From NCBI RefSeq assembly GCF_000020125.1, contig NC_010681.1, positions 682,001 through 746,000 on the forward strand: 64,000 nt of DNA, read 5' to 3'. Origin of the DNA: Paraburkholderia phytofirmans PsJN. GTDB lineage: Bacteria; Pseudomonadota; Gammaproteobacteria; Burkholderiales; Burkholderiaceae. Positions 41,469-45,293 of the stretch are shown here, piece by piece. Below the pieces are notes generated by a model. It was not told where the DNA came from and searched no databases. It was given only the letters and a program-made list of their open reading frames with translations. Position 1 is the first letter of the stretch. The number at the start of each line of letters is the position of its first letter. The translations under genes and the position numbers were made by a program.

Positions 41469-43904
41469 GTGAGCAATCTGATCATTCGCAAGGTAGCCGT
41501 GCTCGGCGCCGGCGTGATGGGCGCGCAGATCGCCGCGCACCTGATCAACGCCAAGGTGCCCGTGCTGCTGTTCGACTTGCCCGCCAAGGAAGGCCCGAAG
41601 AACGCGATCGCGCTGAAGGCGATCGAGAACCTGAAGAAACTGTCGCCGGCGCCGTTCGGCGTGAAGGACGACGCGCAATACATCCAGCCCGCGAATTACG
41701 ACGACGACATCGAGAAGCTCGCCGAATGCGATCTCGTGATCGAAGCCATTGCGGAACGCATGGACTGGAAGCACGACCTGTACAAGAAGGTCGCGCCGCA
41801 TCTCGCGCCGAACGCGATTTTCGCGACCAATACGTCGGGTCTTTCGATCACGGCGCTGTCGGAGGGTTTCTCGGACGAACTGAAGGCGCGCTTCTGCGGC
41901 GTGCACTTCTTCAACCCGCCGCGCTACATGCATTTGGTCGAGCTGATCCCGACCGCGACCACGCGTCCGGAAATCCTCGATCAACTCGAGTCGTTCCTGA
42001 CGAGCGTAGTCGGTAAGGGCGTCGTGCGCGCGAAAGACACGCCGAACTTCATCGCCAATCGTGTGGGGATTTTCTCGATTCTCGCTGTCGTGACCGAAGC
42101 CGCGAAATTCGGTCTGCGTTTCGACGAAGTGGACGATCTGACCGGTGCGCGTCTGGGCCGTGCGAAGTCGGCCACGTTCCGTACCGCCGATGTGGTTGGT
42201 CTCGACACGATGGCGCACGTCATCAAGACGATGCAGGACACGCTGAAGGACGATCCGTTCTTCCCGGTCTACGAAACGCCGGCCGTGCTCGCTGAACTCG
42301 TGAAGAAGGGCGCGCTGGGTCAGAAGACCGGCGGCGGCTTCTACAAGAAGGAAGGCAAGGCGATCAAGGTGCTCGACCCGAAGACGGGCGAGTACGTCGA
42401 CGGCGGCGCGAACGCTGACGAACTGGTCGGCCGCATTTTGAAGCGTCCGCCGGCGGAGCGTCTGAAGCTGCTGCGCGAATCGGAGCATCCGCAGGCTCAG
42501 TTCCTGTGGGCGATTTTCCGCGACGTGTATCACTACATCGGCGTGCATCTGGAGTCGATCGCCGACAACGCGCGCGACGTCGATCTGGCGATCCGTTGGG
42601 GTTTCGGCTGGAACGAAGGTCCTTTCGAAGGCTGGCAGACGGCTGGCTGGAAACAGGTCGCCGAATGGGTGCAGGAAGATATCGCGGCGGGCAAGGCACT
42701 CTCGAACGTGCCGCTGCCTTCGTGGGTGCTCGAAGGGCCGGTGGCCGAGCAGGGCGGCGTGCATACGAACGAAGGTTCGTGGTCGCCGGCTTCGAAGACG
42801 TTCGTGCCGCGCTCGTCGCTGTCGGTCTATGACAAGCAGGTGTTCCGTGCGCCGCTGGTCGGCGAAACCAAGGCCGATCCGAAGACCTACGGCAAGACGC
42901 TGTTCGAGACCGACGCCGTGCGCGCATGGGTCGACGATCGCGCCGGTGAGAACGACGTCCTGATCGTATCGTTCAAGAGCAAGATGAACACGATCGGACC
43001 GTCGGTGATCGACGGCCTGACGCAGGCGATCGAACTCGCCGAAAAGGACTACAAGGGTCTGGTGGTGTGGCAGCCGACGTCGTTGAAGCTCGGCACGCCG
43101 GGCGGTCCGTTCTCCGCGGGCGCCAACCTCGAAGAAGCGATGCCGGCGTTCATGATGGGCGGTGCCAAGGGCATCGAGCCGTTCGTGAAGAAATTCCAGC
43201 AAGGCATGCTGCGCGTGAAGTACGCCAGCGTGCCGGTCATCTCGGCCGTGTCGGGCATCGCGCTCGGCGGTGGCTGCGAGCTGGCGCTGCACAGCGCGAA
43301 GCGCGTCGCGCATATCGAAAGCTATTTCGGTCTGGTGGAAGTCGGCGTGGGTCTTGTGCCCGCGGGCGGCGGCCTGAAGGAAGCGGCGTTGCGTGCGGCG
43401 GAAGCGGCGACACAAGTGGGCGCCACCAACGACCTGCTGAAGTTCGTGCAAAAGTCGTTCGAAAACGCGGCGATGGCGAAGGTCTCGGCCTCCGCGCTCG
43501 ATGCTCGCGCGATGGGTTACCTCAAACCGTCGGACACGATCGTCTTCAACGTGTTCGAACTGCTCGACGTTGCGAAGAAGGAAGCGCGTGCGTTGTCGTC
43601 GGCGGGTTATCGTCCGCCGCTGCGGGTTACGCAAGTGCCGGTGGCCGGGCGTTCGGCGATCGCAACCATCAAGGCGTCGCTCGTCAACATGCGCGACGGC
43701 CGTTTCATCAGCGAGCACGATTTCCTGATCGCGAGCCGTATCGCGGAAGCGGTGTGCGGCGGTGACGTGGAAGCGGGCAGTCTGGTCGATGAGGAATGGC
43801 TGCTGCAACTCGAGCGTCGTGCGTTCGTCGATCTGCTCGGCACGCAAAAAACGCAGGAACGGATCATGGGCATGCTGCAAACCGGCAAGCCGGTGCGCAA
43901 CTAA
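41469..43904 (+). CDS. fadB: 3-hydroxyacyl-CoA dehydrogenase / enoyl-CoA hydratase fusion (FadB-like)
   Basis: An 811-residue bifunctional enzyme. The NAD-binding 3-hydroxyacyl-CoA dehydrogenase part comes first (VAVLGAGVMGAQIAAHL at residues 8-24, then GVHFFNPPRYMHLVEL) and is followed by its C-terminal helical domains. The enoyl-CoA hydratase/isomerase-like part is in the last 330 residues (SAGANLEEAMPAF; GIALGGGCELALHS). This order is reversed compared with E. coli FadB and is common in betaproteobacteria. The GTG start at 41469 has GGAGG upstream. It performs steps two and three of beta-oxidation. Confidence 0.93.
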   Translation: MSNLIIRKVAVLGAGVMGAQIAAHLINAKVPVLLFDLPAKEGPKNAIALKAIENLKKLSPAPFGVKDDAQYIQPANYDDDIEKLAECDLVIEAIAERMDWKHDLYKKVAPHLAPNAIFATNTSGLSITALSEGFSDELKARFCGVHFFNPPRYMHLVELIPTATTRPEILDQLESFLTSVVGKGVVRAKDTPNFIANRVGIFSILAVVTEAAKFGLRFDEVDDLTGARLGRAKSATFRTADVVGLDTMAHVIKTMQDTLKDDPFFPVYETPAVLAELVKKGALGQKTGGGFYKKEGKAIKVLDPKTGEYVDGGANADELVGRILKRPPAERLKLLRESEHPQAQFLWAIFRDVYHYIGVHLESIADNARDVDLAIRWGFGWNEGPFEGWQTAGWKQVAEWVQEDIAAGKALSNVPLPSWVLEGPVAEQGGVHTNEGSWSPASKTFVPRSSLSVYDKQVFRAPLVGETKADPKTYGKTLFETDAVRAWVDDRAGENDVLIVSFKSKMNTIGPSVIDGLTQAIELAEKDYKGLVVWQPTSLKLGTPGGPFSAGANLEEAMPAFMMGGAKGIEPFVKKFQQGMLRVKYASVPVISAVSGIALGGGCELALHSAKRVAHIESYFGLVEVGVGLVPAGGGLKEAALRAAEAATQVGATNDLLKFVQKSFENAAMAKVSASALDARAMGYLKPSDTIVFNVFELLDVAKKEARALSSAGYRPPLRVTQVPVAGRSAIATIKASLVNMRDGRFISEHDFLIASRIAEAVCGGDVEAGSLVDEEWLLQLERRAFVDLLGTQKTQERIMGMLQTGKPVRN

Positions 43905-43926
43905 GCGACGAGCGGACCGCACTACG

Positions 43927-44080
43927 TGCATGGGATCGGAGTAAGCGTTGAAGCGCCAACTCTGGTCGACCGCGATAGGACTGCATGGGACGAGAGTAAG
44001 CGCTAAAGCACTAACTCTCGTCGACCGCGATGAGACTGCATGGGACCAGAGTAAGCGCTGAAGCGCTAACTCTGGTCGAC
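43927..44080. repeat. Three tandem 55-bp hairpin-forming repeats between fadB and fadA
   Basis: Units at 43927-43981, 43982-44036 and 44037-44080 (the last shortened) each begin TGCATGGGA and contain GTAAGCG...AACTCT.GTCGAC. Each holds a 16-bp imperfect inverted repeat with a 2-base loop: 43934-43967, 43989-44022 and 44044-44077. In unit 3 the arms are GACCAGAGTAAGCGCT and AGCGCTAACTCTGGTC. In unit 2 a C-to-G change in the left arm is matched by G-to-C in the right. Unit 1 keeps most pairing through G-U pairs. The last unit ends 3-4 bases before the fadA ribosome site AAGGAGC (44082-44088). Confidence 0.9.
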
Positions 44081-44093
44081 AAAGGAGCTTCAA

Positions 44094-45293
44094 ATGGCAA
44101 AGCAATTGCAAGACGCATACATCGTCGCCGCGAGCCGTACGCCGATCGGCAAGGCGCCGCGCGGGATGTTCAAGAACACGCGCCCCGACGAACTGCTGGT
44201 GCACGCGATCAAGTCGGCCGTGGCGCAAGTGCCCGGCCTCGACACCAAGGTGATCGAAGACGCGATCATCGGCTGTGCGATTCCGGAAGCGGAACAAGGG
44301 CTGAACGTCGCACGCATGGGCGCGCTGCTGGCCGGCCTGCCGAATAGCGTCGGCGGCGTGACGGTGAACCGCTTCTGCGCGTCCGGCCTGACCGCGCTCG
44401 CCATGGCCGCCGACCGCATCCGCGTCGGCGAGTCGGACGCGATGATCGCGGGCGGCTGCGAATCGATGAGCATGGTGCCGATGATGGGCAATAAGCCGTC
44501 CATGTCGCCGCATATCTTCGATCGCAATGAAGACGTCGGCATCGCCTACGGCATGGGCCTGACGGCGGAGAAAGTCGCCGAGCGCTGGAAGATCAGCCGC
44601 GAAGCGCAGGACGCGTTCTCGGTGGAATCGCACCGCCGCGCCATCGCCGCGCAGCAAGCCGGCGAGTTCAACGACGAAATCGCTGCGTACACAATCACCG
44701 AGCGCTTCCCCGATCTCGCCACCGGCGAAGTCCGCGTGAAGACCCGCGAAGTGTCGCTCGACGAAGGCCCGCGCGCGGAAACCTCGCTCGAAGGTCTCGC
44801 CAAGCTGCGCGCGGTGTTCGCGAACAAGGGTTCGGTGACCGCGGGCAATAGCTCGCAGACGTCGGACGGCGCGGGCGCGTTGATCGTGGTGTCGGAAAAG
44901 ATGCTGAAGGAATTCAATCTCACGCCGCTCGCGCGTTTCGTCAGCTTCGCCGTGCGCGGCGTGCCGCCGGAAATCATGGGCATCGGTCCGAAGGAAGCGA
45001 TTCCGGCCGCGCTGAAGGCCGCCGGCCTGAAGATCGACGACCTCGACTGGATTGAGCTGAACGAAGCGTTTGCCGCGCAATCGCTGGCGGTGATTCAGGA
45101 CCTCGGCCTCGATCCGGCGAAGATCAACCCGCTCGGCGGCGCAATCGCCCTCGGCCATCCGCTGGGCGCGACGGGCGCGATTCGTGCGTCGACCGTTGTG
45201 CATGGCTTGCGCCGCCGTAACTACAAATACGGCATGGTGACGATGTGCGTCGGCACGGGTATGGGCGCGGCGGGCATTATCGAGCGCCTGTGA
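44094..45293 (+). CDS. fadA: Acetyl-CoA acyltransferase (thiolase) FadA-like
   Basis: A 399-residue thiolase with acyl-enzyme C95 (VNRFCASGLT), the histidine in ALGHPLGATGAIR, and a second cysteine in TMCVGTGMGAAG, the complete catalytic set. It cleaves 3-ketoacyl-CoA in the last step of beta-oxidation. AAGGAG lies seven bases before ATG 44094, directly after the third hairpin repeat. It is the last gene before a strong terminator at 45351-45386. Confidence 0.95.
   Translation: MAKQLQDAYIVAASRTPIGKAPRGMFKNTRPDELLVHAIKSAVAQVPGLDTKVIEDAIIGCAIPEAEQGLNVARMGALLAGLPNSVGGVTVNRFCASGLTALAMAADRIRVGESDAMIAGGCESMSMVPMMGNKPSMSPHIFDRNEDVGIAYGMGLTAEKVAERWKISREAQDAFSVESHRRAIAAQQAGEFNDEIAAYTITERFPDLATGEVRVKTREVSLDEGPRAETSLEGLAKLRAVFANKGSVTAGNSSQTSDGAGALIVVSEKMLKEFNLTPLARFVSFAVRGVPPEIMGIGPKEAIPAALKAAGLKIDDLDWIELNEAFAAQSLAVIQDLGLDPAKINPLGGAIALGHPLGATGAIRASTVVHGLRRRNYKYGMVTMCVGTGMGAAGIIERL

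Follow-up and report, generated by a model that had tools for sequence, protein, structure and literature searches.

Within the window, the 64-kb stretch of Paraburkholderia phytofirmans PsJN DNA analysed here, an array of three hairpin units lies between a fadB-like gene and fadA. The upstream cistron is an open reading frame of 811 aa (41469..43904, plus strand, stop codon at 43902-43904) which we take to be fadB, following the original prediction and because its sequence resembles a 3-hydroxyacyl-CoA dehydrogenase/enoyl-CoA hydratase. The downstream cistron, fadA (44094..45293, plus strand, 399 aa), encodes an acetyl-CoA acyltransferase, or thiolase, and the Pfam domains Thiolase_N/C were found on its orthologue at locus L118. 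All parts of the array are given on the plus strand as well. A box, CCGCACTACG (43917..43926), which is the diverged counterpart of a GCAAC-NA-NGT box found before the first unit of many arrays, precedes unit 1 (43927..43970, 65.2 bits), whose stem contains three G-U pairs. An 11-nt linker, CGCGATAGGAC (43971..43981), leads to unit 2 (43982..44025, 68.5 bits), in which G-C replaces C-G at stem pair 11-38, and a second 11-nt linker, CGCGATGAGAC (44026..44036), leads to unit 3 (44037..44080, 73.9 bits), which adjoins the Shine-Dalgarno (SD) motif of fadA and carries a TGTC tag and a CCA tail on its antisense strand. The SD itself, AGGAG, occupies 44083..44087. The exact 55-bp spacing of the tandem copies described in the original prediction is borne out by starts at 43927, 43982 and 44037 (gaps of 55 and 55), while the 3-4 bases it placed between the array and the fadA ribosome site have to be corrected to 2 nt, unit 3 ending at 44080 and the SD running from 44083. 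Its statement that the window holds no second copy also stands, the next-best match reaching just 9.4 bits; dozens of copies lie elsewhere in the genome.

A search of positions 43700-44300 returned neither promoter-like nor terminator-like sites, and a terminator or promoter in the fadB-fadA spacer was rejected; an intrinsic terminator or attenuator, sought as a stem followed by a T run, was likewise absent from this interval. When positions 43000-45000 and five further loci (L157, L171, L123, L139 and L002) were compared with Rfam, no family exceeded its gathering score, and the best score, that of naRNA4, was 33.0 bits where 59.5 are needed.

Hairpin structure and paired changes

The unit comprises 44 nt and reads TGCATGGGACC, hairpin, GGTCGAC. 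The RNA folding energies of units 1, 2 and 3 are -18.1, -19.2 and -25.2 kcal/mol, and their z-scores are -3.80, -5.87 and -5.85, with 0 of 200 shuffles folding equally well. A 16-bp hairpin with a 2-nt loop had been proposed. This description is correct for the DNA, in which 16-bp arms flank a 2-nt spacer as an inverted repeat, and fails for the RNA, in which an A.A mismatch separates a stem of 9 bp from a short inner stem capped by a 4-nt UGAA or UAAA loop. The earlier report of a C-to-G and G-to-C exchange that distinguishes units 2 and 3, and of G-U pairing in unit 1, is borne out by the sequence.

The accompanying proposal that structure is kept by compensatory change agrees with the number of both-side-changed cells, which exceeds that of shuffles in the PsJN genome and in fadA and atpC orthologues alike. 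In alignment A1, which holds 36 units from the PsJN genome with the rRNA copies and four duplicate loci excluded, 93.2% of cells are paired, both sides change at 7 of the 14 pairs, and 25 both-side-changed cells compare with 6.5 in shuffles (0 of 500 shuffles reach this number). Thirty last units from the orthologous fadA and atpC arrays are 90.7% paired, with 27 both-side-changed cells against 8.9 in shuffles and 7 both-side-changed pairs against 4.6, a value reached by 19 of 500 shuffles. Paired changes can also arise through replacement by other copies. With pair 18-31 excluded, the stems contain 109 G-U and 82 A-C combinations, an excess too modest to prove RNA-level selection. The unpaired bases and the loop are invariant or nearly so across the unit alignment.

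Copies of the unit and their position before Shine-Dalgarno motifs

A DNA search of the PsJN genome gave 40 matches at E up to 10. The covariance model R1, which was built from A1 and is blind to the SD, returned 82 rows from the same genome. Once 28 of these are dropped (26 shadows on the opposite strand and 2 weak neighbours), 54 units remain at 38 places, of which 6 belong to rRNA operons and 32 do not; places below 37 bits may be chance. By rule, an SD and a start codon come next at 22 of the 32 non-rRNA places. Among the 27 strong ones (at least 44 bits), 23 immediately precede an SD and a start codon, in the orientation of the gene (21 by rule, with L013 and L159 added by eye), and four (L016, L020, L026 and L164) lie away from an SD. 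The array is not specific to fadA, for it is one of 38 places in its own genome, and 19 of the 30 genus genomes compared have no unit at this spot. Nor does an ordinary palindromic repeat in hundreds of copies, which the original prediction had also envisaged, describe a genome-wide total of 54 units with this share of strong non-rRNA places at SDs.

The rRNA operons carry diverged copies. Right behind the 3' end of the 23S rRNA, antisense to the rRNA and adjoining a CCCCCTTCGGGGG hairpin, such a copy was seen at six loci of the PsJN genome (L021, L023, L024, L025, L028 and L030) and at L335; these copies may stem from an old insertion or may be the origin of the family.

Arrays from all fetched loci, 278 in number, were classed by a rule for an SD in sense or antisense. 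The rule is passed in sense by 180 arrays and in antisense by 18, namely 14 composites that pass through their own GAGGGGG and 4 arrays that also pass in sense; in these 4 the antisense motif is 8-13 nt off, and none of the 18 has it at 0-2 nt from the unit. A sense SD was found by rule in 22 of the 31 arrays fetched from the PsJN genome (5 of the remainder being rRNA copies), in 18 of 30 family arrays (the best R1 matches, 4 of the 30 being composites) and in 29 of 32 best matches from the genus, a set that is biased, since the first 10 nt past the unit, SD included, were part of its query. Therefore, the claim of position rests on the own-genome and family sets, both obtained with the SD-blind model. 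Arrays of G071, G051 and G143, whose copies were picked as repeated identical matches and mostly lie in composites, have a sense SD in 1 of 21, 1 of 11 and 0 of 11 cases, respectively. The SD motif starts 0 or 2 nt past the unit in 30 of 40 own-genome and family arrays; once the genus and remaining sets are added (fadA orthologues included), the count is 70 of 84. A GCAA box stands 2-7 nt before TGC in 49 of the 180 SD arrays, against a mean of 5.6 in shuffles. At least 120 stretches came from a pattern search, and a start codon is present in 119 of 120, a figure which shows only that real genes follow because the selecting pattern contains AGGAGA.

The unit was matched in 37 of 39 genus genomes and, in the survey of the family, in 45 of 120 genomes from 8 of 25 genera; copy number in that survey, where units per genome are lower bounds, differs widely between species. 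At the level of the order, 2 of 200 genomes hold the unit, both from its own family. The 80 listed of at least 120 SD-pattern stretches all belong to Paraburkholderia, Caballeronia and Burkholderia, the species among these listed matches including B. cepacia, B. stagnalis, B. ambifaria and B. catarinensis. Large plasmids or chromids of these three genera account for 22 matching records, and a search of phage records for the unit gave no match. Eight annotated plasmid records were inspected, six of which list no genes in the stretch. At plasmid locus L385 the annotated start (1722) comes after six units, with the SD in an unusual register 18 nt past the last unit, and at plasmid locus L384 no downstream gene is listed.

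The genes behind the arrays are diverse. Downstream proteins (177) fall into 123 groups, and the leading Pfam domains (MFS_1 with 10, Sugar_tr with 6, ABC_tran with 4 and CoA_transf_3 with 3) show no theme. Since the 123 groups are unrelated, the arrays do not mark an ordinary regulon, and a common regulon was rejected on this ground. An early impression of CoA-transferase enrichment, formed without a background comparison, was dropped. A trans-acting factor would offer another account of the conserved parts of the unit: an RNA-binding protein or sRNA could recognise the A.A mismatch, the UAAA loop and the TGCATGGG flank, and the copies would form a post-transcriptional regulon. That the unpaired bases and the loop vary little or not at all suits such recognition, and start-proximal repeats without a functional theme in Beggiatoaceae are read that way in the portion of PMC4679880 that deals with them, but the want of a coherent gene set and the wide variation of copy number between species make this account improbable.

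Upstream of the 180 SD arrays, a crude gene caller placed a same-strand gene within 100 nt in 64 cases and within 250 nt in 36 more; the rest have a divergent upstream gene (53), a distant same-strand gene (14) or no gene seen (13). From the 64 and 36 arrays close to a same-strand gene it follows that many lie inside likely operons, as in fadBA and atpDC. This bears on the notion of a DNA-level operator, in which a dimeric transcription factor would bind the palindrome. The perfect palindromic arms and the divergent genes that the crude caller saw at 53 of 180 SD arrays would agree with an operator, but the arrays in likely operons, a position fixed to the SD and not to a promoter, and arms that vary freely in sequence while their pairing is kept leave it very little credence.

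Empty sites, nesting, tandem growth and known repeats

The fadB-fadA locus was returned for 30 of the 39 genus genomes searched, and the atpD-atpC locus likewise for 30 of 39. The unit is present in 11 of the 30 fadB-fadA spacers and in 19 of the 30 atpD-atpC spacers. Empty fadB-fadA spacers measure 11-41 nt and keep an SD-like motif; among the 11 unit-free atpD-atpC spacers, six look clean (e.g. L357) and five (L343, L344, L354, L362 and L363) look, by their sequence, like remnants of deleted arrays. In the atpD-atpC spacer L359, the unit stands between the same flank and AGGAG with zero extra bases. Each unit in the fadA and atpC spacers ends 11-17 nt ahead of the start codon, and the number of units before fadA ranges from 0 to about 6 between species. 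Because orthologous spacers occur both empty and filled, with the SD in place either way, the element came to the SD; and it is dispensable, since 19 of 30 fadA and 11 of 30 atpC spacers go without it. In many atpD-atpC spacers (L336-L363) another inverted repeat, rich in GC (GGCGCCGGC...GCCGGCGCC), lies on the atpD side of the unit.

In 35 cases the unit lies inside the apical loop of another, 30 of them with GCT(T/C) on the left and AGC on the right. G143 contains 11 copies of an empty palindrome, GGTTACTTTCTTTGC-AGCRGCAAAGAAAGTGACC, and unit-bearing copies at the same point were fetched. Another empty form, CCCCCTCGGGGGGC-AGCGAACG..., occurs 76 times (53 in G071, 16 in G051 and 7 in G087) alongside unit-bearing copies. 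Identical units at many places of G071 indicate recent spread, perhaps of the whole composite. At loci L119-L138 and L148-L156 (G071 and G051), copies of another repeat family, GCCCCCTCGGGGGG...GCGAACGnnnGTGAGCGTGGGGG, enclose the unit, and the empty form of that family is common there; at L139-L147 and L366-L376 (G143) the unit is enclosed by CTTTCTTTGGTTACTTTCTTTGC/GCAAAGAAAGTGACC palindromes. Positions 750-878 of L139 matched Rfam Bp1_684 weakly and below threshold (25.9 vs 44 bits).

Arrays run head-to-tail with 1-14 units and a period of 49-55 bp, and the linkers measure 5 nt in 141 of 237 cases and 11 nt in 31. Long, near-identical arrays stand before single genes at L157 (14 units), L158 (9) and L385 (6), and their sequences hint at recent tandem expansion. 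Of the roles suggested in the original prediction, a REP-like mobile palindrome expanding in place is the best fit to this dispersal, to the empty and filled sites, and to the nesting and tandem arrays. The genome comparisons show this much: short mobile hairpin repeats, shared by Burkholderia, Paraburkholderia and Caballeronia, form a family that is dispersed, has entered spacers which relatives have empty, multiplies head-to-tail and lies within the loops of other palindromes and of its own units.

Cores of the family have appeared in a prophage study as repeats of "orphan CRISPR" arrays. Table 4, in the part of PMC5968390 concerned, gives GCGTAAGCGCTAAAGCGCTAACGCC for P. terrae BS001 and BS110, GGCGTTAGCGCTTTAGTGCTTACGC for BS007 and P. 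hospita, and GTCGACCAGAGTTAGCGCTTCAGC for P. oxyphila, and all three correspond to the core or an arm of our unit. The regularity of the repeats and this listing are what would recommend orphan CRISPR arrays as the true identity of the family, which is scarcely believable: the linkers, mostly of 5 or 11 nt, are shared and themselves similar and therefore are not unique spacers, the entire unit is a hairpin set before SDs, and the same part of PMC5968390 itself found no cas genes for such arrays.

CGTC REPs, in the portion of Di Nocera et al. 2013 (PMC3733652) that describes them, possess a CGTC tag with TGTC as a frequent and CCTC as a further variant, stems of 8-9 bp whose first two pairs are A-T, loops of 4-5 nt and a CCA tail; they are mostly head-to-head dimers, rarely form clusters and have no known transposase. 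The unit is likewise a short dispersed palindrome for which no dedicated transposase was found, and its antisense strand reads TGTC - stem - loop - stem - CCA, with a first stem of 9 bp and a loop of 4 nt. Over 515 units in 278 arrays, CCA is present in 479 units and antisense TGTC in 259 of the 278 last units, a count that leans on 127 arrays from a pattern search in which that A was fixed; the antisense tag of internal units is mostly GGTC (144) or TGTC (66). Unlike the CGTC REPs of that description, the unit has an inner stem past the A.A mismatch, its first stem pair is G-C and not A-T (the antisense stem begins with GA in 462), and it occurs at SDs on one strand in head-to-tail arrays instead of head-to-head dimers. 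We judge the family to be REP-like mobile hairpins, a variant apparently specialised to SD positions. It is filed as REP-like, and not as a proven CGTC REP, because tag and tail agree, while the longer stem with its interruption, its first pair and the head-to-tail arrangement disagree.

GTAG REPs and REPINs with their RAYT are, like the unit, non-coding palindromes spread over the genome and sometimes clustered, but the unit lacks the GTAG tag. The RAYT-like gene of PsJN (G000:C3:4035197-4035487, locus L377) is a Y1-type transposase-like gene (weak Pfam PF01797), found about once per genome across the family and also in unit-free genera. RAYT flanks were inspected for this gene and four others (L209-L212), and the 3.7-kb stretch around the PsJN gene holds no unit of at least 14 bits. 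A RAYT link was rejected, since no unit flanks the own-genome gene and RAYT-like genes occur in unit-free genera too.

ERIC, NEMIS, RUP and Nezha elements are larger than the unit and have terminal inverted repeats. In the section of PMC3733652 that treats them, they are transcribed, MITE-like repeats beside genes whose hairpins are said to alter mRNA stability; the unit too is inserted next to genes and folds into hairpins, but that section links none of the four to the SD in a fixed orientation. The TAACTGA repeats of Beggiatoaceae, as presented in the corresponding portion of PMC4679880, stand in tandem a few nt before starts, vary in number, precede genes without a functional theme and are suspected of a translational role. 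Our arrays share the start-proximal tandem arrangement, the variable number and the lack of theme; in contrast, the Beggiatoaceae repeats are heptamers and not 44-nt hairpins, and canonical ribosome sites are rare there whereas the SD is intact here. No description of the hairpin family was found in the open-access literature, where sequence words of the unit turned up in one paper, PMC5968390, subscription papers being outside the scope of the search, and the portions of PMC4603805 and PMC5688073 on start sites and sRNAs of B. cenocepacia contain no such repeat.

Proposed insertion at ribosome sites and action in cis

We think it probable that this is a mobile, SD-sited hairpin family whose arrays act in cis on translation and/or mRNA protection, the mobile part being far better supported than the functional part. 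Insertion would join the tag end (GACA in sense, TGTC in antisense) to a target starting with AG, and the SD AGGAG would be the commonest tolerated target of this kind between genes. It is the tag end of the unit that meets the SD or AGC, which would be expected if this end is the joined one. The mRNA of the downstream gene would then bear 1-14 hairpins abutting its ribosome site; these may shield the site from upstream RNA and/or protect the 5' side of the cistron, and the number of units may set expression in small steps. A more specific version, which we put forward only tentatively, has the hairpin home to the SD: it would integrate on the SD-complementary strand, TGTC being joined to ...CTCCT, and would grow and shrink as a tandem array in the 5' leader, with unit number acting across the genome as a rheostat on how strongly unrelated genes are translated.

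From their position, their strand and the stems kept at atpC we infer that the hairpins influence, in cis, translation or the stability of the mRNA; dispensability, a flat accessibility result and the weak G-U excess speak against such a role. In the accessibility comparison, mean predicted openness of the SD was 0.498 with the array and 0.464 without it, and was higher with the array in 88 of 152 cases (p 0.03), while the medians were reversed (0.476 vs 0.493). An anti-SD switch, in which ACUCC of the 3' arm would pair with GGAG, was rejected because CTCC is no richer in last units (53 of about 106 distinct units) than in internal ones (74 of about 150).

The same observations may instead describe a selfish REP-like passenger, which we regard as a serious possibility although not the probable one. 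A target preference for a strand ending in CT, which pairs with AG, would put the hairpin before AGGAG, where it would be tolerated without being of any use, and palindromy would be kept for transposition instead of a role in the RNA. A passenger would account for the fixed junction of 0 or 2 nt to the SD, for the recurrence of this junction before AGC, both within other repeats and within the unit itself, for downstream genes without a functional theme, for sites that are empty in many relatives and for the weak G-U excess, and the antisense TGTC of 259 last units and the CCA of 479 units are marks of CGTC REPs as given in the pertinent part of PMC3733652. It is less easily reconciled with atpC hairpins kept in 19 of 30 genus genomes and with the 27 both-side-changed cells of the fadA and atpC orthologues taken together; moreover, although intergenic sites starting with AG abound elsewhere, SDs make up 23 of the 27 strong places.

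Mobile palindromes are usually viewed as intergenic clutter. The mobile, SD-sited family that we favour explains some of the published orphan CRISPR arrays of Paraburkholderia and provides a concrete target site for one transposase-less CGTC-type repeat. If such a family lands at ribosome sites facing one way, it would naturally supply changes in expression ready-made, and since copy number per leader differs at the same gene between species, the effect is directly measurable.
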